DNA of 64,000 nucleotides from Spirochaetota bacterium (GTDB lineage: Bacteria > Spirochaetota > GWB1-36-13 > JAKPDD01). Of the stretch, positions 3,658 to 15,474 are shown one piece after another. The position numbers and the translations under genes are program-made. The notes below the pieces were generated by a model. The model did not search any database. It was not told the DNA's origin and was given only the letters and a program-made list of their open reading frames with translations. The stretch lies in the NCBI GenBank assembly GCA_029552945.1, contig JAKPDD010000046.1, forward strand, positions 72,366 to 136,365, written 5' to 3'. The first letter of the stretch is position 1. Each line of letters starts with the position of its first letter.

Positions 3658-3948
3658 TTATAAATTATGATATTCTCTAGTAAATAATTCTACAGCTTCT
3701 TCTATTGCCTCTTCTGCATCTTTTCCTTTAGCGACTATTTTTATATTTGAATTGTATACAAGGCAGTTTGCTAACAGGTCTACAGTTGACTTTGCTCGTA
3801 TTCCATAATTTGAACCCTCTTTATATACAAGTATTTCTGAATCAAACTCCTGCAACTTTTTTGCAATATAAGCTGCAGGTCTTACATGAATTCCATTTTT
3901 ATTTGCTATTTTTACATATTTTTCTATAGATTTTTCCTCAGTGATCAC
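3658..3948 (-). CDS. HPr family phosphocarrier protein
   Basis: 96 residues covering a whole HPr domain. His21 in NKNGIHVRPAA is the phospho-accepting histidine of the PTS phosphocarrier. RAKSTVDLL places Ser54 at the position of the regulatory serine that HPr kinase phosphorylates in many bacteria. The C-terminal GKDAEEAIEEAVELF helix is typical. The start is GTG at 3946-3948, with AAGGGG 5 bases upstream; no in-frame ATG is available. It follows the second HPr-like gene by 9 bases. No EI, EII or HPr kinase gene is in the window, so whether it serves sugar uptake or regulation cannot be told. Confidence 0.88.
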   Translation of the reverse strand: MITEEKSIEKYVKIANKNGIHVRPAAYIAKKLQEFDSEILVYKEGSNYGIRAKSTVDLLANCLVYNSNIKIVAKGKDAEEAIEEAVELFTREYHNL

Positions 3949-3957
3949 ATTTTCCCC

Positions 3958-4365
3958 TTATTTAGGTTTATTATTAATAATAGAATCTACTAGGATTTTT
4001 TTTATTTCTTCATTCCAATTTTTATTTTTAATTATCTCTAACTCTTCATTAATATTTGTTTCTATGTGATATGGGTCTCTTGCCAATAAATATTCCATTA
4101 TATCAATTGCATTTTCAGCGTCTTCGCCTTCAGCTGTTAAAATTAGTTCGTCTCCTTTTATTATCTCTAATAGAATTATTTCTATTAGTCCATCTTTTTT
4201 TATATTTACTTTTGAGTTTTTTTTCTTTGAAAAAAGATGAATTTCTGATAAAAGTTTTTCTGAAATAGATTTTATTATCTGTCCAGGCCTTATATGTAAT
4301 CCGTTTTTATGACCAAAATTTATAGACTTTTCTAATTTTTTGCCCATATATTTAAAATTAATCAT
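3958..4365 (-). CDS. HPr-like domain protein with C-terminal extension
   Basis: 135 residues. Residues about 11-105 align with HPr: His24 lies in HKNGLHIRPGQ and the closing helix reads GEDAENAIDIMEYLL. Aligned with the neighbouring HPr, the regulatory serine position is glycine (Gly59, in KKDGLIEI), next to an aspartate, so this copy cannot be regulated by HPr kinase in the usual way. A lysine/glutamate-rich tail of about 30 residues follows the domain. It lies upstream of the canonical copy in the same operon. It may be a paralogue with a regulatory partner or an alternative phosphocarrier; the function is inferred from the fold only. Confidence 0.75.
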   Translation of the reverse strand: MINFKYMGKKLEKSINFGHKNGLHIRPGQIIKSISEKLLSEIHLFSKKKNSKVNIKKDGLIEIILLEIIKGDELILTAEGEDAENAIDIMEYLLARDPYHIETNINEELEIIKNKNWNEEIKKILVDSIINNKPK

Positions 4366-6561: not shown

Positions 6562-6963
6562 ATGATATATAAAGAGAGGATTAGAACATCGTCAAGAGAA
6601 GTACTTATAGATATAACTTCTATTATAAAAAATGTTGTTAAAAGATCAAATATTGTTTCGGGTATTGCATTTATTTATGTTCCGCATACTACATGTGGAA
6701 TAACTATAAATGAAAATGCAGACCCTGACGTTAAGAAAGATATTATAAACGCACTTGCAAATATAGGAATAGAGTCTATAAGTTTTTATCACCTTGAGGG
6801 CAACTCACCAGCACACGTTAAGTCTACTATAGTAGGTTCAAGTATAACTGTTTTTATTGAGAATTCTGATTTGGTACTTGGTAGATGGCAGGGGATTATG
6901 CTTGCTGAGTTTGATGGTCCACGTGAAAGAGAAGTATGGATTAAAATAATAAAAGAGTTATAA
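6562..6963 (+). CDS. YjbQ family protein (UPF0047, secondary thiamine-phosphate synthase type)
   Basis: 133 residues, full length for the family. Conserved blocks are YVPHTTCGITINENADPDV (39-57), HLEGNSPAHVKS (77-88) and LGRWQGIMLAEFDGPR (106-121), containing the histidines, aspartates and the WQ pair that define it. Family members have weak thiamine-phosphate synthase activity in E. coli, but the physiological role is not settled. It begins 9 bases after the flagellar gene and its last 6 bases overlap the 3' end of the convergent POTRA/barrel gene. Confidence 0.93.
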   Translation: MIYKERIRTSSREVLIDITSIIKNVVKRSNIVSGIAFIYVPHTTCGITINENADPDVKKDIINALANIGIESISFYHLEGNSPAHVKSTIVGSSITVFIENSDLVLGRWQGIMLAEFDGPREREVWIKIIKEL

Positions 6964-8178
6964 TCTACCACCTATCATAAAACCTATTGCATATTCTTTA
7001 TAAACAAGCCCATATGCAAAATATAGTTCCATTGCAGGTATTATTACTTTGTTTATAAAAAATCTTAATGATATTCCTGTACTATAATCAAGTCTCCAGT
7101 TATTACTTTTCTCTTTCCAGTAAGCAGAGTCAAAAAAAGGGACTACCAAAAAGTCAGTTGAAAACACTTTTGCCAATGGTATCCTGTATTCAATATTATT
7201 TGTTATTGCAGTCTCTGTTCTTATCTGATATTTTTTATAGCCTCTAAGTGGACCTACATAAAAAGTTGCATCCTGGCCTATTGTTTCTTCAAAAAAGTTA
7301 TCTATTTTAAAAGTATGAAACATATTAAAAGCTATATATATATTCTGTCTTTTGTATGGATTTATAAAACTTTCAAACTTAAGACCTGTGATACTTCTTT
7401 TAATATCACTGAACCATAAGTCTTTTTCATAAAATAGCCCTAAATAATTTCCCTCACAATAATAACCATCGTAGTTTGTCCAATCAAGTTTAAGGAATAG
7501 TCTTGTAAAAGAGTTTTTACCTTTCTCAATATAGGGTTCTTTGACTATTTTATAATAATAATTGTAATTTGACCACATAATATAGTGCTCTCCATAGAAC
7601 TGATATTTTAGTGTAATAAAGCCGCCATAGCTATCCTGGGAAAAATTATCTATAACACTGTTCATATCAAAAATATCTATATCTTTATATAGCCTGCTTG
7701 CCCCTATTACATAGGAGAAAAGTGAGTTTTTTACTCTTGGGTGAGAAAATAATGTGAAAAAATTAATTTTTTTATTTTCATATATTGGCGATATAACAAT
7801 ACTATTCTGATAACCAAATAGATTACTTTCTATAAATACCAGACCAAATGATGTATTCTCATTTTTATAAGCAAAGTAGGGTAGTAATATTATTGACCAC
7901 TTATCTTTAACCCTTATTATTATTTTAACATTATCTTCGGATAATTTTTCTGCCTTTACTTCAACTTCTTCAAACTTCCTTTGATTATCAAGATATCTTT
8001 TTATATTTTTTAAAATATCTTCATTAAACTCGTCACCGACTTTTACTCTTGCAATACCTAATATAACTTCGCTTCTTGTTTTTTGGTTGCCTATAACTTC
8101 TATTTCACTTATTATTGTTTTTGGATATATTATGTTCTGTATTAATAGAATAATTATTAATAATAATGTTTTTTTCAA
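6958..8178 (-). CDS. outer-membrane protein with POTRA domain and beta-barrel (BamA/TamA superfamily-like)
   Basis: 406 residues. A signal peptide (about 1-19) is followed by one POTRA domain (about 20-95: ISEIEVIGNQKTRSEVILGI, then a GDEFNEDILKNIKRYLDN loop and a VKIIIRVKDKWSI strand) and a strand-rich C-terminal region with alternating polar and aromatic residues, as in a 16-strand Omp85 barrel. A single POTRA and a short barrel differ from true BamA (usually five POTRAs, about 800 residues), so it is a reduced Omp85-type protein of unknown substrate. The start is TTG at 8176-8178, with AAAGGA about 6 bases upstream. It is transcribed alone, divergent from the ECF sigma operon. Confidence 0.75.
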   Translation of the reverse strand: MKKTLLLIIILLIQNIIYPKTIISEIEVIGNQKTRSEVILGIARVKVGDEFNEDILKNIKRYLDNQRKFEEVEVKAEKLSEDNVKIIIRVKDKWSIILLPYFAYKNENTSFGLVFIESNLFGYQNSIVISPIYENKKINFFTLFSHPRVKNSLFSYVIGASRLYKDIDIFDMNSVIDNFSQDSYGGFITLKYQFYGEHYIMWSNYNYYYKIVKEPYIEKGKNSFTRLFLKLDWTNYDGYYCEGNYLGLFYEKDLWFSDIKRSITGLKFESFINPYKRQNIYIAFNMFHTFKIDNFFEETIGQDATFYVGPLRGYKKYQIRTETAITNNIEYRIPLAKVFSTDFLVVPFFDSAYWKEKSNNWRLDYSTGISLRFFINKVIIPAMELYFAYGLVYKEYAIGFMIGGRL

Positions 8179-8243
8179 AATTATCCTTTTTAGATTATTT
8201 ATTTTGAATCTGTAAGAGTAAAATTTATCTAATTTAAAATTTC

Positions 8244-8273
8244 TTGCTTTTAAATTTTTACCTTTTTTAGAAT
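8244..8273 (+). promoter_or_regulatory. possible housekeeping promoter for the ECF sigma operon
   Basis: TTGCTT at 8244-8249 and TAGAAT at 8268-8273 are 18 bases apart, 40 bases upstream of the sigma-factor ATG. The -10 matches TATAAT in five of six positions; the -35 keeps only TTG. The 134-base divergent gap is so AT-rich that chance matches are expected. Confidence 0.3.
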
Positions 8274-8312
8274 TTTAATATCTAACTTTTTAAAAAATAA
8301 GAAAGAATATTT

Positions 8313-8816
8313 ATGGCCAATAAAGATAAAGAGTTTGATAAGATATTTTGGGAAAATAAAGATTTTGTTTTTAATATAGCAAGAAAGTTTTTTGATGAAC
8401 AAACTGCTGAGGATATACTTCAGGAGGTTTTTATAATTATATATGTAAATTATAAAAAGTTTAGGGGTCAAAGTAATATAAGAGCATGGATTTACAGAAT
8501 TACAATTAATGAGGTTTATAAAAGGATAAAAAAGATTAAAAGAGAGAAAAAGTTTGAGGAAATTTATGATATTAAAAAAAGTGAGTGTTTTGATATAAGA
8601 GAGATTGTTGATATTGTTAAAAGTATGCCTGAAAAGAGAGCTAAAATAATTATTTTAAGAGGTATTGATAACCTTGACTTTAAGACAATTGGAGAGATTA
8701 TGAATATATCTTCTGAGTCTGCTAAAACTTTATATTCTCTTGGTGTAAAAGATATTCGTGAAAAATTAGGTATAGAAAAAACTAAGGGGGTTTTAAATGG
8801 AGAGGGATTGGAATAA
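8313..8816 (+). CDS. ECF-type RNA polymerase sigma factor
   Basis: 167 residues with the two sigma regions of an ECF factor. Region 2 (about 9-75) includes DILQEVF (34-40), FRGQSNIRAWIYRI and the DNA-melting helix; region 4 (about 104-152) has the PEKRAKIIILRGIDNLDFKT and ISSESAKTLYSLGVKDIRE helix-turn-helix. It directs core polymerase to a dedicated regulon in response to an envelope signal. It is followed, with a 20-base overlap, by a small single-TM protein and then by a Spy/CpxP-like periplasmic protein, an arrangement like that of metal-responsive ECF systems of the CnrYXH type. Confidence 0.93.
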   Translation: MANKDKEFDKIFWENKDFVFNIARKFFDEQTAEDILQEVFIIIYVNYKKFRGQSNIRAWIYRITINEVYKRIKKIKREKKFEEIYDIKKSECFDIREIVDIVKSMPEKRAKIIILRGIDNLDFKTIGEIMNISSESAKTLYSLGVKDIREKLGIEKTKGVLNGEGLE

Positions 8817-9060
8817 TATACTTATAAATATTAAAAAGAGGGGGAAAAGAAAAATATTTGTAAAAAATCTTTTAAAAAGTACTTTTATTTTGCTTTTTGC
8901 ATTTATTTTCTTATCTATTTTTGTTGATAGGACTAAAGATAATCTAGAAATATCTAGAAAAAGCAATATTCAAAATCAAAAAAATATTAATGAGTTAAAA
9001 ATTATTCTTATTACAAACTATATATATGATGATGATCTTGGTCTTTTTATTGATAAATAA
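8797..9060 (+). CDS. small single-pass membrane protein, candidate anti-sigma factor
   Basis: 87 residues. A basic N-terminal stretch (KKRGKRK at 13-19) precedes one hydrophobic helix (about 28-43), predicting a short cytoplasmic N terminus of about 25 residues and a periplasmic tail of about 44 residues. The ATG lies inside the sigma gene (20-base overlap), so the two are translationally coupled. No zinc anti-sigma (HxxxCxxC) motif is present. CnrY-type anti-sigma factors also have a very short cytoplasmic helix plus one TM segment, so this is the obvious anti-sigma candidate by position; sequence alone does not prove it. Confidence 0.6.
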   Translation: MERDWNNILINIKKRGKRKIFVKNLLKSTFILLFAFIFLSIFVDRTKDNLEISRKSNIQNQKNINELKIILITNYIYDDDLGLFIDK

Positions 9061-9082
9061 AAAATTATTAGGAGGTATAAAA

Positions 9083-9571
9083 ATGAAAAGAAAGATTATT
9101 CTTTCTTTGATGCTTTTAGCATCCTTTTCTTTTGGGATGGGCCCTGGTAATAGGCCTGGTATGGGAATGAGAGGAGAGCCTGGCTTTCCTTTTATTGATA
9201 GGTTTATACTTAAAGACATAGGTGTTGATGAGAATGTTATAAAAGAAATTCTTGATATGACAATAGAGATAAGGAAACAGATATTTGATCTCCAATCTGA
9301 GGTAAGGAAGAATCAGCTTGATCTTCAGCTTGAACTTGAAAAACCAAACTATGATAGAAAAAAGATTAATGATCTTATAAGAAGCATAGTTGACCTTAGG
9401 GCAAAGCAACAGTATATAATTGAATCAAGAAAGTTTAGAATACTTGAAAAACTTACACCAGAGCAGAGGAAAAAATTGTTTGAATACATAGAAAACAGGA
9501 GAAAATTATTTTGGGGCAGAGTAATGAAAGGAATAGAAAATACACCACCAACAGAAGAAAAGTCAGAGTAA
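9083..9571 (+). CDS. Spy/CpxP-like periplasmic protein (LTxxQ family)
   Basis: 162 residues from the ATG at 9083, chosen because a strong AGGAGG lies 9 bases upstream and a signal peptide (about 1-18) follows directly. The mature protein has a Gly/Met/Pro-rich start (GMGPGNRPGMGMRGEPG) and then long amphipathic helices with LTPEQRKKL (124-132), the LTxxQ motif of Spy, CpxP, ZraP and CnrX-type proteins. These act in the periplasm as chaperones or metal/stress sensors. Position after an ECF sigma factor and a one-TM protein suggests it is the sensor or an inhibitor. The methionines near the N terminus could bind metal, but this is inference. Confidence 0.75.
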   Translation: MKRKIILSLMLLASFSFGMGPGNRPGMGMRGEPGFPFIDRFILKDIGVDENVIKEILDMTIEIRKQIFDLQSEVRKNQLDLQLELEKPNYDRKKINDLIRSIVDLRAKQQYIIESRKFRILEKLTPEQRKKLFEYIENRRKLFWGRVMKGIENTPPTEEKSE

Positions 9572-9580
9572 TATTCTAAA

Positions 9581-9600
9581 AAAGGGGGATATTCCCCCCC
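9581..9600 (-). terminator. rho-independent terminator of the RND/outer-membrane operon
   Basis: Read on the minus strand, a G6A/TC5 hairpin with a 3-base loop is followed directly by six T. It lies 7 bases beyond the 3' end of the DUF1302-like gene. The same hairpin may also help to stop the convergent ECF operon, which ends 10 bases away, although on that strand no T-run follows. It is the only clear intrinsic terminator and one of the few G/C-rich spots between genes in the window. Confidence 0.85.
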
Positions 9601-9607
9601 TAAATTA

Positions 9608-10960
9608 TTAAAAGAGATGTTCTAGTTTTAAGTAGATAAAGTCTTTATTGTTATATTGACCTATGTATGTATCTTTTTCACCGAATAATATGTAAGAGCC
9701 TATTATAAGTTTTGTCTGTGGTCCTAATTTCATATGAAATGAAGGTGATAGAAGGCCATCTTTATTTGTAAAACTATAGTTTCCTTTGAGTTCTATTCTA
9801 TATCTTAGATTATCAAATTCATAATAAACTGTGTATATTCCACTGTGGTTGTATTCTTTTAATTTGGTACCGTATCGTGAAAGTAGGCCCTCTTCATAGT
9901 CTTTTATATAGTTAAGGTTATATTGCAGGTTTATATATAGATTTGGTATCAGAAAGTCTGTTTTATCAATACCCAAAGTTAAGTCTAAATACTCTTTTTC
10001 TATATTGTTAATTACTTTTTTAAATAGCATTCCTTTTGTAAAATAGGCTACCTCACCTCTTACTACAAATGAGCCCAGTACTCTCTCAAAGTCAAAACCA
10101 ATAAACTCTATTCTGTTTAAAAATAGTTCTATTTTTTTTTCGGATAAATTAAATTCTGTAAATGGTGTCGGATCATATCCTCTGTAATATGATAATGATA
10201 TATCTGTATTGAATAGATTGAAATATAGCTTTCCTGCAAAGTCACTATCTGAAATTCTATCTTTTACTTTAATTTTCTCTATTGTTGTTAATGGATCTGA
10301 TTCCTTAATTTCTTTAATTATTGGAGATAGAAATGGAGAGTTTTCCTCTATAGGTAATAAGCTTTCTTTATGAATGGGGAAGAAGAATCCTTCTAACTTT
10401 AGGCTTTTATAACCTATTGAACCTTTTAATGCTATTCTTCCAAGTTTTCTATCATTTCTTTCTTCAAGTATAAGCAGCCTTAAGTCTTGTGGGCTTAATA
10501 TATCTGTTGGCCTTATTTCATCAGCTTTTCCCCAGTTTATTATTTGCTGACCTATTCTAAGATTAAGTTCAATTTGTGAGATAAATTTTGAGTAGTCTAT
10601 ATATGCTTCAACAAGATCTCCCCTAATATCTTCACCTTTTCTATTATCAGTATCAAGTGAAAAGTGGTTTATATTTCCTTTAATGTAAAAAAATAGGTCA
10701 CCGTAATTATCAGTAAACTCTATAGTGATTTTTGTTTTTTCGGCTAGATTCCCATTATCTGGAAAAGAGAGTAAGTAGGAGTTTATCTTCCCCTGTATCT
10801 TTTTACTATTTTGGGTCTGATATTGCTCTGTTGTTTTATTACTTTCCTGTTGATCTTTATAATCAACATCAACTTTAAATTCATCAAACTCATCTTCTCC
10901 CATTAAATTAAAGGGTAAAAGTAGTACAGAAAATATAAGAACTATTATTGTTCTTTTCAT
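9608..10960 (-). CDS. DUF1302-like outer-membrane beta-barrel protein of the RND exporter operon
   Basis: 450 residues with a signal peptide (about 1-21) and a barrel-like body of alternating hydrophobic and aromatic strands. The stretch LRIGQQIINWGKADEIRPTD, followed by ILSPQDLR, is the hallmark of DUF1302-type outer-membrane proteins. In other bacteria such proteins are encoded beside MMPL/RND exporters and LolA-like or DUF1329 proteins, and are thought to form the outer-membrane part of lipid or hydrophobic-compound export. It starts 12 bases after the LolA-like gene, with AAGGA upstream of its ATG. The last gene of the tetR-linked operon, it ends at a strong terminator. Confidence 0.75.
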   Translation of the reverse strand: MKRTIIVLIFSVLLLPFNLMGEDEFDEFKVDVDYKDQQESNKTTEQYQTQNSKKIQGKINSYLLSFPDNGNLAEKTKITIEFTDNYGDLFFYIKGNINHFSLDTDNRKGEDIRGDLVEAYIDYSKFISQIELNLRIGQQIINWGKADEIRPTDILSPQDLRLLILEERNDRKLGRIALKGSIGYKSLKLEGFFFPIHKESLLPIEENSPFLSPIIKEIKESDPLTTIEKIKVKDRISDSDFAGKLYFNLFNTDISLSYYRGYDPTPFTEFNLSEKKIELFLNRIEFIGFDFERVLGSFVVRGEVAYFTKGMLFKKVINNIEKEYLDLTLGIDKTDFLIPNLYINLQYNLNYIKDYEEGLLSRYGTKLKEYNHSGIYTVYYEFDNLRYRIELKGNYSFTNKDGLLSPSFHMKLGPQTKLIIGSYILFGEKDTYIGQYNNKDFIYLKLEHLF

Positions 10961-10972
10961 ATTTTTATCCTT

Positions 10973-11755
10973 TTACCATGGTTTATGTATGTTTTGAGGA
11001 TTAAACATAGTAGGATTTATATTTGGGTCTACAATAACATTTTTTACAACCATTTTTGTCTCTCTTTTTGTTTCAAGGTCTTTTGCATTTACAAAGTATG
11101 GCATATATATACCTTTTTTTATCTCTTTTACATTTGCTGATATACCTATTCTAACTGGTTTACCATCTTTTCCAAAAGACTGATATCTTACCGGAAGAAG
11201 TGTTGCCTTGTCTATCCACATTTTTATTTTTGGGAATTTTGCGTTTTTGTCTTTTGATGTTGCTTCAATTACATAACATTGAAAAGTCTCGTTACCATTT
11301 TTTACTTCCTGGTCTGGAAGTCTGTTGTAGTTATAATCATCTATTTTTCTTCCACCAAGGTCCTCGTTTGTAAAAACTGTATCTTCAAAATCATTTTGTT
11401 TTTCTGAACTTGCTATCTGTCTTGGTCTACCCACATTTGGTATATATATATACTGAATATTGTCTTTATCACCAGGCTGTTCTAAAGATAAAAATGTTAC
11501 ATCTCTTTTTAAACCAGATGTAAACCTGAATAGAACTTTATCCAGGTTATTTTCTCTGAGTGTTCTGATCCCTATACTTCTTGTTTCTATCTCTTTGCCA
11601 TTTTCAATTACAGTAAGTTCAGCTTCAACTATTCTACTTTTAGATTTGTTTGCATCTTTTGCCATCTCAGCGATCTGTCTACCAGTATAGTTATCATTTG
11701 CAATCAGCCCTATTGGTAATAAAAGGGCTAAAATTATTTTTTTTGCTTTTTTCAT
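10973..11755 (-). CDS. LolA-like outer-membrane lipoprotein-sorting protein (TP0789-type)
   Basis: 260 residues with a signal peptide (about 1-19). The body is a LolA/LppX-like lipid-binding fold: TGRQIAEMAKDANK, strands with YIYIPNVGRPRQI, FTNEDLGG, and a C-terminal PTMFNPQNI. This family is known next to MMPL exporters, where it probably shuttles a lipid or lipoprotein across the periplasm. Its ATG overlaps the stop of the exporter gene by 4 bases and lies just after AGGAGG in the exporter tail, so the two are coupled. It is distinct from the second LolA homologue at 23208, which is closer to the general lipoprotein carrier. Confidence 0.85.
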   Translation of the reverse strand: MKKAKKIILALLLPIGLIANDNYTGRQIAEMAKDANKSKSRIVEAELTVIENGKEIETRSIGIRTLRENNLDKVLFRFTSGLKRDVTFLSLEQPGDKDNIQYIYIPNVGRPRQIASSEKQNDFEDTVFTNEDLGGRKIDDYNYNRLPDQEVKNGNETFQCYVIEATSKDKNAKFPKIKMWIDKATLLPVRYQSFGKDGKPVRIGISANVKEIKKGIYMPYFVNAKDLETKRETKMVVKNVIVDPNINPTMFNPQNIHKPW

Positions 11756-14655
11756 TTTTCTCCTCCTAATATTTTTTTATCTATATTAAAAGTGCCTAAT
11801 AATACTGGCACCAGTGTTAAAGCAAGAAAGCTTGTTGTAATCATTGTCAATGCTATTATCCATCCTACATTTATAAGAGGTTTGAAGCTTGAAAAGCATA
11901 ATACGAGAAAGCCTGCTGCAACTGATATTGCGTTTATTAAAATTGCTTTACCATTTCTTAAACTTGTATTTATTATAGCTTTTTCTTTATCTTCACCTTT
12001 TTTTCTTAGAATAGTATACCCGTTAAGAAAGTGGATAGTATAATCAACCCCTGTACCAATTGCTATGTTTGAAATTATTGCAGTGGCGACATCGAGGTGA
12101 ACATTGAATATTGCCATTATTGCAAAATTGAATATTATTGCTACTATAAGTGGCAGTATTGATATAGATCCTATAAATATTGACTTAAACATTATAGCAA
12201 CAAGTATTGCAACCATTATTGCAGATGAGATAATACTCCATACTTGTCCATTTACTATAAGGTTATTTACCTCAAGATATAGTGGATTTACACCTGAAAA
12301 ACCAATATTATGTCTAAGTGTTTTTACTCTTTCTCTGATTTTTTCTGTAACATTTTTAGTTGCTATTGTGCTACCAGTTTTAAGTATTACTGATATTTTT
12401 AACATTTGTTTTTCTGAGTCCACAATAAGTCTTGTGTCTTCTCTGTCATACTGATCTATATAACTTAATATTATAGATTTTAGCTTATCTTTTTTAGTGT
12501 TTTCATCAAGGCTAATTAATTTTCCATTTTCATCAAATATTTCATCAGGAATTTTGTAGAATTCTTTTTTTCCATAATTCATTGTTTCATGCATTTTCTT
12601 TATAAAGTCAACTATTGATGTTACTTTACCAACGTTTTCATAACCCTCTATAGTTTCCTGAATTTTTTCAACCTCTTTAAGTAGGTCAACATCAAGTATG
12701 CCGTTCTGTTTATTGGTGTCTATTATTATATTTAGTGTCGAAGTCCCAGCAAAGTTTTCTCTTATAAACTTATCATCCTGATATATTTTTGTATCTTTTT
12801 TAAAATAATCAATTACATTTATTTCAACCTTTATAAAGTATGCACCAATAAAAGACACTATTATAAGTATAGTATAAACTAATATTATTTTTTTTCTCTT
12901 TTTAAAGAAAAATTCTGATAATTTTCTAAGGAAAGTTGTTGTTTTATCAATTTCTTTTTCAAGGTCATCTTCTGACCTAATATTCATCTCTTTTATTTTT
13001 TTTGGCAATCTACCAATTCTTAATAGTGCGGGAATAAGGATCATTGAGATTAAGAGTGCGTATAGCACACCTAAGGCTGCAAATATACCAAAGTCTCTAA
13101 GTGGAATAACAGAGTTTGTTGATAATGTAGCAAAACCTGCAAATGTTGTTAAACCAGCCATTATTACACCCATACCAAAGTCTTTTATAGTTTTCTTTAG
13201 TGCTTCTTCCTTATCCATGCCAAGTGCTCTATCTTCATAATAGTGATGTATGATATGAATCCCATATGCAGAACCTATTGCAACAAGTAATACTGGTAAT
13301 GCAGTTGAGACAATTGAAATTGATTTTCCCAGTATTGCTATTGTTCCAAGTGTCCATATTGTTGAAAGAACAACTGTGATTAAAGGAAGTATAACACCTC
13401 TTATATGCATGAATGAAAGATAAAGAAATATTATCAAGACTAACAGAACTATTGGGAAAAGTATAACAAGGTCTTTTAGCATAAAGTTTCCCATAGTTGT
13501 TATTATTACAGGCTCACCTGCTATATAGTATTTTATATTTTTATTGTCTTTTAATAACTCTTTTATTTCTCTTTCAACATACTGTATTACCTTTTCCCTC
13601 TCTTCTTTTAGTAACTGCGGATAAAGCTCAATTGTTATCAGTGTTGAGTTTGGATTTTTATTGCTGTAAAGGCTATCTTTATATAATTCCCAGGACTTCA
13701 GTCTTTCTTCTATTAAAAAGAGTGTTTTATCAGGATTTTCTGATAGTTTTTCAAAGTCAACAAGGTTGGATACTCTTATAAGTTTCTCACTTTTTATTAT
13801 AGTGTCCACAAGCTCTGTTATTTCTTTTTCATTTAATGACTTTAATATTTTTATCTCTTCTTCTGTAAGATTAAAATATTCTTTTATATTGTCAATTTTG
13901 CTTTTGATAAAATCAACTACTTTTTCTTTATCTGTGATACCTTTCTCAAGCATGTAGTTTGATAGCTCAACACCTTTTTTTTCATTAACCCCTATTTTAC
14001 TATAAAATCTTGTTATTTTTTCAGTTTCTGTAAACTCGGAAAATACTGCGTCAACATTTGTAAGTGATGTTACCTTTCTTATTCTTTTTTTATATTTGTT
14101 GTTTTCATCAGTATATGAGTTTAAGATACTAAATATTTGTTTTATTCTCTTACTATCATTTTTTATTTTTTCTATTTTGCTAAAGTCTCCACTATAATAC
14201 ATTGAAACTTCACTTTCTATGATTAAGTTTTTAAGCTCTTCTGGTGTTTGAAACTCAAATGATTTTTCATTAAGAAACTGAATAAATCCATCTCTTTCTT
14301 CATCTGTAAGATCATATAATATCTTATAAAGGCTCTCTTTCTCTATTTTGGAATCAATTTTTTCAATTGTTTTTGTAATATTATCAATAAGTTTTATACT
14401 TTCAATATTAAAGATACCATTACTATTTTCTATGGCTATTGCTATACCACCTGTTTCACCTAATATTTGAGATGTTTTTTCATCATATACTTTTACTGGA
14501 TTATCTTTTGGGATCATTGTTGTGACATCATTATCTATATTTGTCTTTATTATTGTAAAATAACTGAATAACAGTGTAAGTATTCCAAAGGTAAATACAA
14601 TTATAACTGGATGTTTTGCAAGTTTTGCTTCAAGTTCTGACAAGCTTATTTTCAT
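11752..14655 (-). CDS. RND superfamily (MMPL/SSD-type) exporter
   Basis: 967 residues with the RND layout: one TM helix near the N terminus (about 17-36), a large periplasmic loop, a block of five or six TM helices (about 395-545), a cytoplasmic loop, another TM helix (about 585-610), a second periplasmic loop and a C-terminal TM block (about 790-950). The TM blocks contain GSAYGIHIIHHYYED and GTGVDYTIHFLNGY, typical of MMPL/SSD transporters. It uses the proton gradient to move lipids or hydrophobic compounds. GGAGG precedes the ATG. A TetR-type regulator lies just upstream on the same strand, and a periplasmic carrier and an outer-membrane protein follow. Confidence 0.92.
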   Translation of the reverse strand: MKISLSELEAKLAKHPVIIVFTFGILTLLFSYFTIIKTNIDNDVTTMIPKDNPVKVYDEKTSQILGETGGIAIAIENSNGIFNIESIKLIDNITKTIEKIDSKIEKESLYKILYDLTDEERDGFIQFLNEKSFEFQTPEELKNLIIESEVSMYYSGDFSKIEKIKNDSKRIKQIFSILNSYTDENNKYKKRIRKVTSLTNVDAVFSEFTETEKITRFYSKIGVNEKKGVELSNYMLEKGITDKEKVVDFIKSKIDNIKEYFNLTEEEIKILKSLNEKEITELVDTIIKSEKLIRVSNLVDFEKLSENPDKTLFLIEERLKSWELYKDSLYSNKNPNSTLITIELYPQLLKEEREKVIQYVEREIKELLKDNKNIKYYIAGEPVIITTMGNFMLKDLVILFPIVLLVLIIFLYLSFMHIRGVILPLITVVLSTIWTLGTIAILGKSISIVSTALPVLLVAIGSAYGIHIIHHYYEDRALGMDKEEALKKTIKDFGMGVIMAGLTTFAGFATLSTNSVIPLRDFGIFAALGVLYALLISMILIPALLRIGRLPKKIKEMNIRSEDDLEKEIDKTTTFLRKLSEFFFKKRKKIILVYTILIIVSFIGAYFIKVEINVIDYFKKDTKIYQDDKFIRENFAGTSTLNIIIDTNKQNGILDVDLLKEVEKIQETIEGYENVGKVTSIVDFIKKMHETMNYGKKEFYKIPDEIFDENGKLISLDENTKKDKLKSIILSYIDQYDREDTRLIVDSEKQMLKISVILKTGSTIATKNVTEKIRERVKTLRHNIGFSGVNPLYLEVNNLIVNGQVWSIISSAIMVAILVAIMFKSIFIGSISILPLIVAIIFNFAIMAIFNVHLDVATAIISNIAIGTGVDYTIHFLNGYTILRKKGEDKEKAIINTSLRNGKAILINAISVAAGFLVLCFSSFKPLINVGWIIALTMITTSFLALTLVPVLLGTFNIDKKILGGEK

Positions 14656-14670
14656 TTTTAACCTCCAATT

Positions 14671-14708
14671 TTATACTTTAGGTTTTAAAATTAAACTAAT
14701 CAGTATAA
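14671..14708. promoter_or_regulatory. possible operator in front of the RND operon
   Basis: TTATACT (14671-14677) and AGTATAA (14702-14708) form an inverted heptamer pair 24 bases apart, with ACTAATCAGT (14695-14704) beside the right half. The same heptamer pair, more tightly spaced, occurs in front of the tetR gene at 15482-15511. Sharing between a regulator and the operon next to it is what one expects of a TetR operator, but the words are AT-rich and short. Confidence 0.25.
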
Positions 14709-14859
14709 AAATATAACAATTAAAATTTATGTTTCAAAATTTTTTTTAAAAATTTTTTAATATATTTTTAAAAACTTTTATAAATTGATTTTTAAAAAGA
14801 GATAATCTATAAAAATCTTATAAAAGATGAAACTTATTAATTGTTAAGCAAGTATTGAA

Positions 14860-15474
14860 CTATTTAATTTTTCTTAAAATATAAGGAATAAACTCTTTAT
14901 ATATCATCCTGCTTATGTATTTTATTGAATCTTTGTTCTGGTTATTTAATGTAACATTTAATATATGAAGGTAACCACTTCCCACCATACTTATTACAAG
15001 GTGCTCTTTCTCTTTTTCACTCATGTTAAAGCCTTCAAATATATTTTTTAAAACACTTATAAGTTCTAGCAAGCTCTCTTTTAATATTGAGATTGTATCT
15101 GTTTCTATTGTTCCAACATTCCCGTAAAATATAAAATGTATTATGTATGGTTCTTTTTCTATGTATGAAAATATATTATATATTATTTTCTTTATTTTTC
15201 TTATCCTATCCTTTATATCTAATTTTAATATTTTTTTTATTTCGGACTCTATTTTGTGTATTAGTTTTTTCTTTGAGTGTTTAAGTGTTTCAATAAATAG
15301 TGCCTCTTTATTTGTAAAATACTGATAAAATGTTGCTTTTGAAAGCAGGGCTTTATCTACTATATTATCTATTGTTGTGTTTCTATATCCCTGTTCTTTG
15401 AATAAAATTTTAGCAATATTTATTATATTTTCTCTTATTTTTTTTGCTTTAAGTTCTTTTTTACTAATTTTCAT
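14860..15474 (-). CDS. TetR/AcrR family transcriptional regulator
   Basis: 204 residues. The N-terminal TetR helix-turn-helix spans about 12-62 (ENIINIAKILFKEQGYRNTT, then IVDKALLSKATFYQYFTNKE), and the rest is the all-helical ligand domain. Such repressors usually sense a hydrophobic compound and control a neighbouring exporter. It lies 204 bases upstream of the RND operon on the same strand. An imperfect inverted repeat immediately upstream of its start is a candidate autoregulatory site. The 204-base gap to the exporter contains no other gene that I can see. Confidence 0.92.
   Translation of the reverse strand: MKISKKELKAKKIRENIINIAKILFKEQGYRNTTIDNIVDKALLSKATFYQYFTNKEALFIETLKHSKKKLIHKIESEIKKILKLDIKDRIRKIKKIIYNIFSYIEKEPYIIHFIFYGNVGTIETDTISILKESLLELISVLKNIFEGFNMSEKEKEHLVISMVGSGYLHILNVTLNNQNKDSIKYISRMIYKEFIPYILRKIK

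Follow-up and report, generated by a model that had tools for sequence, protein, structure and literature searches.

Three consecutive plus-strand genes form one operon

The window, as we call the whole 64-kb stretch of Spirochaetota DNA analysed here, carries three consecutive genes on the plus strand which encode an ECF sigma factor, a one-TM protein and an exported protein, and which are one operon (Table 1). The three genes lie where the first-pass annotation had placed them. The sigma gene runs from the ATG at 8313 to the stop codon at 8814-8816, and its product matches Sigma70_r2 (5e-13) and Sigma70_r4_2 (1e-7), both above the curated Pfam cut-off, as well as the NCBIfam model sigma70-ECF (62.5 bits, cut-off 42.9); according to both databases, it consists of sigma2 and sigma4 only. 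The start codon of the second gene (ATG 8797, stop codon 9058-9060) lies inside the sigma gene, as had been claimed, with an overlap of 20 bp. This ATG is preceded by AAGGGGG and, immediately 5', by an in-frame TAA (8794-8796), which excludes a normal start further upstream and thus fixes the start. The third gene begins with the ATG at 9083, 3' of AGGAGGT, and its stop codon ends at 9571.

Table 1. Features of the operon and its flanks, numbered by window position.
Feature	Position	Strand	Evidence or details
Predicted autoregulatory ECF promoter	8256..8286	+	-35 TTTTACCTTT (8256-8265), -10 TATCTAAC (8279-8286)
ECF sigma factor, 167 aa	8313..8816	+	Pfam Sigma70_r2 and Sigma70_r4_2 above cut-off; member of seven-sigma clade
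One-TM protein, 87 aa, proposed minimal anti-sigma	8797..9060	+	Position and topology as in 46/46 loci; homologue in sister genome, E=1.8e-8
Cytosolic basic membrane-proximal helix, residues 1-24, proposed sigma-binding part	8797..8868	+	8 K/R vs 2 D/E
TM segment, residues 25-43	8869..8925	+	Hydropathy; AF2 model with a single helix spanning residues 2-74
Periplasmic C-terminal block YIYDDDLG, possible contact site for sensor or protease	9019..9042	+	YFYDDELG in sister; AF2 hairpin
Exported CpxP/Spy-fold protein, 162 aa, proposed periplasmic co-sensor	9083..9571	+	PF13801 above cut-off; family profile matches Spy; AF2 and Foldseek
Short GC inverted repeat GGGGGATATTCCCCCC, probable terminator	9584..9599		Between convergent genes; direct reading of the sequence

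The genome to which the window belongs (1.87 Mb) contains eight sigma-region-2 genes, three of them of ECF size including the window sigma, and a scan of its contigs with the window sigma returned a single distant ECF match; no rRNA was detected in this genome. A second ECF sigma gene of this genome (L046, G000:C41, 1366-3000) is followed by genes for a one-TM protein and for an exported protein that is charged and looks helical; the layout is similar to that of the three-gene operon, but lacks a CpxP match.

The exported protein has a predicted CpxP/Spy-type fold

The third protein starts with a hydrophobic, signal-peptide-like segment, and the Met/Gly/Pro-rich N terminus described earlier is real (FGMGPGNRPGMGMRGEPG). 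It matches Metal_resist (PF13801) at 8.6e-8, above the Pfam cut-off, and is the sole PF13801 match in the genome. The first-pass annotation had called it an LTxxQ-motif protein; its membership of the CpxP/Spy superfamily stands by virtue of PF13801, whereas the match to LTXXQ (PF07813, of the same superfamily) is itself below the cut-off (0.0076). A profile of the family searched against the PDB retrieved Spy (5e-13), CpxP (4e-9) and ZraP (5e-7), while CnrX was not matched by sequence in this search. In the AF2 model (pLDDT 81), a disordered N terminus is followed by three long helices, and the Foldseek list obtained with it is headed by CpxP, Spy, NccX, CnrX and ZraP with probabilities near 1 (~0.99 for CnrX and NccX) and E-values that are all >0.1. 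Judged by this model, the third protein has the CpxP/Spy/CnrX/NccX fold.

This fold raises the question whether the operon encodes a true CnrYXH-type metal sensor, in which the third protein would bind a transition metal, possibly Cu(I) or Ag(I) via the Met-rich N terminus, and relay this to the anti-sigma. The PF13801 match, the closeness of the fold to CnrX and NccX, the four Met among the first residues of the mature protein, the Met- or His-rich N termini of many relatives, and the RND pumps found behind the promoter motif in relatives (see below) all fit such a sensor. However, for the sensing of Co and Ni, CnrX depends on specific site residues including a conserved Met (PMC7689651), and when this His/Glu/Met site was sought in the mature window protein, zero His and zero Cys were found, unlike in nearly all relatives, most of which have several; a CnrX-like metal site is thus not there. 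Moreover, the window's genome has no metal pump with the motif. We therefore regard metal sensing of the CnrX kind as unlikely and a chaperone-type or other envelope signal as more likely; the Met-rich tail may still bind Cu(I).

The three-gene arrangement recurs across the phylum

A sister genome from another family (G001), the only other genome of the order that was examined, encodes a sigma factor, then a TM protein of 84 aa, then a CpxP protein; gene order and overlapping start are as in the window. When the CpxP-family profile was run over 393 genomes from 168 genera of the phylum, homologues were found in 148 genomes and 80 genera, and an ECF sigma gene adjoins the CpxP gene in 33 of 40 genus-distinct loci, all of them outside the training set of the profile. 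A one-TM protein is encoded directly after the sigma gene in 46/46 loci, mostly with a short overlap, a count which covers the loci where such a protein can be found, as the start was picked by a script that demanded a TM segment. Nine of these 46 proteins carry the zinc anti-sigma motif HxxxCxxC, which identifies the gene position after the sigma gene as the anti-sigma position.

Most of the phylum has the gene order CpxP-sigma-anti. The arrangement sigma-anti-CpxP is the mark of a sigma clade with members from seven genomes (98/88 support), in which the window and sister sigmas group together (100/99 support). The clade is also set apart by profile score (7e-56 or better, vs 9e-42 for the next sequence). 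Retention of the sigma gene without the two genes that follow it, which the first-pass annotation had named as the observation that would speak against a module, is not seen in this clade: the one-TM gene is present in 7/7 members and the CpxP gene in 6/7, and in the seventh member, which the profile search had brought up, the TM gene lies directly 3' of the sigma gene and is followed by the end of the contig before any CpxP position. The three-gene arrangement is conserved far beyond chance and is no chance array, and the window operon is a stripped-down form of a module that recurs in the phylum. At locus L029 (G043:C631, 3615-8838), what appears to be a single operon encodes a one-TM protein, a CpxP-like protein, an OEP and an AcrB-type RND transporter, and thereby links the module genetically and directly to an efflux pump.

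A one-TM protein with room for a single cytosolic helix

Profile searches of the 87-residue protein, proposed earlier as a way to place it in an anti-sigma family, returned no Pfam or NCBIfam match. It is homologous to the TM protein of the sister genome (Table 1; 34% identity), and the two have a conserved block at either end, W..(I/M)L.NIKK.GK and Y.YDD.LG. The cytosolic parts of the two proteins (~24 residues in the window, 26 in the sister) are the shortest among the 46 loci. A short cytosolic part is found in 34/46 loci, where it mostly measures 32-47 residues and follows the pattern I..RL.S..W[DN]..IA..V..[RK][RK]; a Trp stands 20 residues ahead of the TM segment in window and sister, and in 27 of the 34 short relatives a Trp lies at 18-25. 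The 87-residue protein was missed by an HMM built from these short relatives (E=2.3), so that its kinship with them rests on position and topology. Its helix does resemble that of one member of the same sigma clade (L034) better than 400 shuffles, as the best of 45 pairwise comparisons, a resemblance that is not repeated by the helix of the sister. In an AF2 model of moderate confidence, which had two sequences as input, residues 2-74 form one helix through the membrane and the C-terminal block forms a hairpin.

In solved ECF/anti-sigma pairs, the first anti-sigma helix lies on sigma4 and the last on sigma2 (PMC7406223), and CnrY makes this dual contact with only two helices (PMC7406223; PMC4598750). 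The 87-residue protein lacks the zinc motif HxxxCxxC of the ZAS type, and its cytosolic part has room for one helix, not for the two of the CnrYXH type; what it lacks is the first helix, the one that contacts sigma4 in the solved pairs (PMC7406223). Position and topology support its assignment as an anti-sigma well, whereas sequence does so weakly. Within the same sigma clade there are both a long zinc-type form (L023) and a short one (L024), which suggests that the length of the anti-sigma has probably changed more than once. We tentatively consider it possible, although the odds are against it, that ~24 membrane-near cytosolic residues would suffice to hold an ECF sigma through sigma2 contact and membrane tethering alone, and that the window protein would thus mark the short end of a size range that leads, within one phylum, from a zinc domain over two helices to one helix, accompanied by a CpxP-fold co-sensor.

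The same brevity could also be read in another way, namely that the CpxP-fold protein exerts most of the control, or that the TM protein acts as a tether or as a positive co-factor instead of inhibiting the sigma. The room for only one helix in ~24 residues and the missing sequence match to known anti-sigma domains are compatible with this, as is the report that periplasmic AabB alone lowered SigAb activity (PMC12153292). Nevertheless, clear zinc anti-sigma proteins hold the same position in nine loci, and the short N-terminal block of the TM protein is conserved in the sister, and we deem such a role improbable; an inhibitory one-TM anti-sigma remains our preferred reading.

The one-TM proteins of other loci (L031, L035, L078-L108) share a conserved motif of the type ID..L..R-COOH at the extreme C terminus, found in 20/34 short relatives vs <=2 in 1000 shuffles with a pattern that was written after seeing them. 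It is a possible sensor-docking or protease signal and is absent from the window protein, where YIYDDDLG is found.

A conserved promoter motif and its predicted targets

A scan in front of position 8313, as suggested by the first-pass annotation, did locate an ECF-type site. The motif AAC-N18-TCTA occurs in the upstream regions of 4/7 members of the sigma clade, vs 0.06 expected. A weight matrix trained on the five clade members outside the order picks TTTTACCTTT-N13-TATCTAAC in the window (p=0.005 vs shuffles), 57 nt ahead of the ATG; in the sister it selects TTTTACTTTT-N13-CATCTAAA (p<0.001), 59 nt ahead of the ATG. The spacing is equal in both and exceeds that of the training sequences by one base. 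Another candidate at 8206-8232 (GAATCT-N16-TCTAA) was discarded, as it has fewer matches in the genome than the reversed control and is unconserved in the sister.

The window's genome has two exact matches to the pattern, of which only the operon site precedes a gene, the other being located inside one. With one mismatch, 30 sites were counted vs 33 in the control, so that the genome does not reveal a larger regulon. No pump in it has a promoter site, and the operon alone is the only output recognisable by sequence. It is very improbable that the module is decaying in this lineage, with the TM protein as a remnant and the sigma unregulated, or the whole operon as a relic: the cytosolic part is indeed the shortest of 46 and the regulon seems reduced to the operon, but the short form is common to another family with the blocks at both ends conserved, frames, ribosome-binding sites and overlap are all intact, and 8256-8286 is by far the best site in the 64-kb window with the matrix of the order, a matrix that includes this site.

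Relatives offer a richer picture. The sister has four exact sites, each close before a gene, namely before the sigma operon, an ABC ATPase gene, a small lipoprotein gene, and an operon for HlyD/MacA-like, FtsX/MacB-like, ATPase and OEP proteins; in the last case, the frame as listed starts further upstream, and the ATG used here, ~24 nt behind the site, was picked by eye. G024 has exact sites in front of the sigma operon, of an operon for an AcrB-type RND protein and an OEP, and of an OEP-HlyD-MacB operon, and both sites of G012 precede genes, i.e. the sigma operon and an RND-OEP operon closely similar to that of G024. The other matches in G024, G032 and G035 lie inside genes or have no gene start close behind. 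Control counts for the pattern in relatives are small but nonzero, and single sites are therefore predictions, the weight being carried by the repeated link to tripartite pumps. The module thus appears to switch on export pumps in several relatives, where RND-TolC and MacAB-TolC operons are predicted targets of the sigma motif.

Several genes were considered as additional targets and rejected. A gene for a short BamA-like protein with one POTRA domain (6958-8178, minus strand) is divergent from the sigma operon and shares the intergenic region with it, and has no good site on its strand. The convergent exporter-like cluster at 9608-15474 (minus strand), which encodes a DUF1302 outer-membrane-type protein, a LolA-like protein, an MMPL/RND exporter and a TetR regulator, has no site and possesses its own TetR gene. 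Likewise, the sole AcrB operon of the genome lies 3' of a TetR gene and has no site, and the genome's homologues of the sister's MacB permease are distant and without a site. A one-mismatch site 29 nt upstream of a FeoA-domain gene (L201, G000:C41:162630-162659), which is followed by a gene for a DtxR-like regulator, is not clearly above chance. Elsewhere in the window (3658-4365, minus strand) there are two neighbouring HPr-like genes, the second of which is divergent in sequence as judged by eye.

Discussion

We consider it probable that the operon encodes an autoregulated, envelope-sensing switch of sigma factor, anti-sigma and co-sensor, in which the anti-sigma keeps only the membrane-proximal helix. 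The ECF sigma would transcribe its own operon from the promoter at 8256-8286, and the basic cytosolic helix of the 87-residue anti-sigma would bind the sigma next to the membrane and tether it there, most likely through the sigma2 surface where the clamp of RNA polymerase is met. The periplasmic CpxP/Spy-fold protein would bind the periplasmic tail of the anti-sigma and set the threshold. A misfolded envelope protein or other envelope ligand might then draw the CpxP-fold protein away or alter its shape, upon which the anti-sigma would let go of the sigma or be cut, and the freed sigma would induce the operon and with it a new supply of anti-sigma and CpxP-like protein. Where relatives carry the same promoter motif, RND-TolC and MacAB-TolC pump operons would be part of the output. 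The analysis itself establishes the gene identities, the operon layout, the conserved synteny, the fold of the third protein, and the promoter motif with the genes behind it in relatives; that the sigma is bound, by which domain, that the CpxP-fold protein makes contact, and how signal and release work are what we infer.

A tested precedent for this scheme is SigAb-AabA-AabB of Acinetobacter baumannii, which by its published architecture has the same order of sigma, short one-TM anti-sigma and periplasmic protein, again with overlap; there, the 107-aa TM protein AabA inhibits via its cytosolic part, and the system is autoregulated with a tiny direct regulon, as we also propose for the window operon (PMC12153292). 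The two systems differ in the length of the anti-sigma (107 vs 87 aa) and in the copper-related signal of SigAb (PMC12153292). An operon of a sigma factor, a hypothetical protein and a periplasmic heavy metal sensor is also mentioned for Azospirillum (PMC12826043).

The resemblance to CnrYXH put forward by the first-pass annotation holds for the logic (a conserved unit, a promoter, and the pump link in relatives) and for the fold, but not for membership. Like the CnrYXH/NccYXH systems of Cupriavidus metallidurans, the window operon combines an ECF sigma, a very short one-TM anti-sigma and a periplasmic sensor of the CpxP/CnrX fold, and the sigma family profile matches the CnrH chain 4cxf_A at 1.1e-19, among many ECFs. 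In contrast, the genes there are ordered anti-sigma, sensor, sigma (Y-X-H), a difference that had already been noted; CnrY has two cytosolic helices vs one in the window anti-sigma; the mature window sensor is without His and Cys; and RND pumps, the output of CnrYXH/NccYXH, are seen for this module only behind the motif sites of relatives, the window's genome being without a pump site.

With the ECF/class I anti-sigma pairs (ZAS/ASDI), the window pair shares the genetic position and one TM segment, and such proteins occupy this position in nine relatives, one of them a member of the window's own sigma clade; the window protein, however, has neither zinc motif nor three-helix bundle, and at most the last, sigma2-type helix would be left. 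CpxP-CpxA and Spy of E. coli likewise tie a CpxP-fold periplasmic protein to an envelope response, although the partner of CpxP is a histidine kinase there and a sigma/anti-sigma pair here.

The CnrYXH logic, sensors of the Spy/CpxP fold and small anti-sigmas are already known. A limited check, confined to open-access papers that could be searched, found neither the phylum-wide pairing nor the one-helix anti-sigma nor the pump-linked motif. If our reading is true, the 87-residue protein would rank with the smallest anti-sigma factors that work and would make it testable how little contact holds a sigma factor, a question that arises because the solved pairs touch both sigma domains (PMC7406223). 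Beyond this operon, the analysis connects a CpxP/Spy-fold protein with ECF control throughout a phylum, provides a promoter motif with named targets, and links the switch to export pumps of the RND and MacAB types in several lineages.
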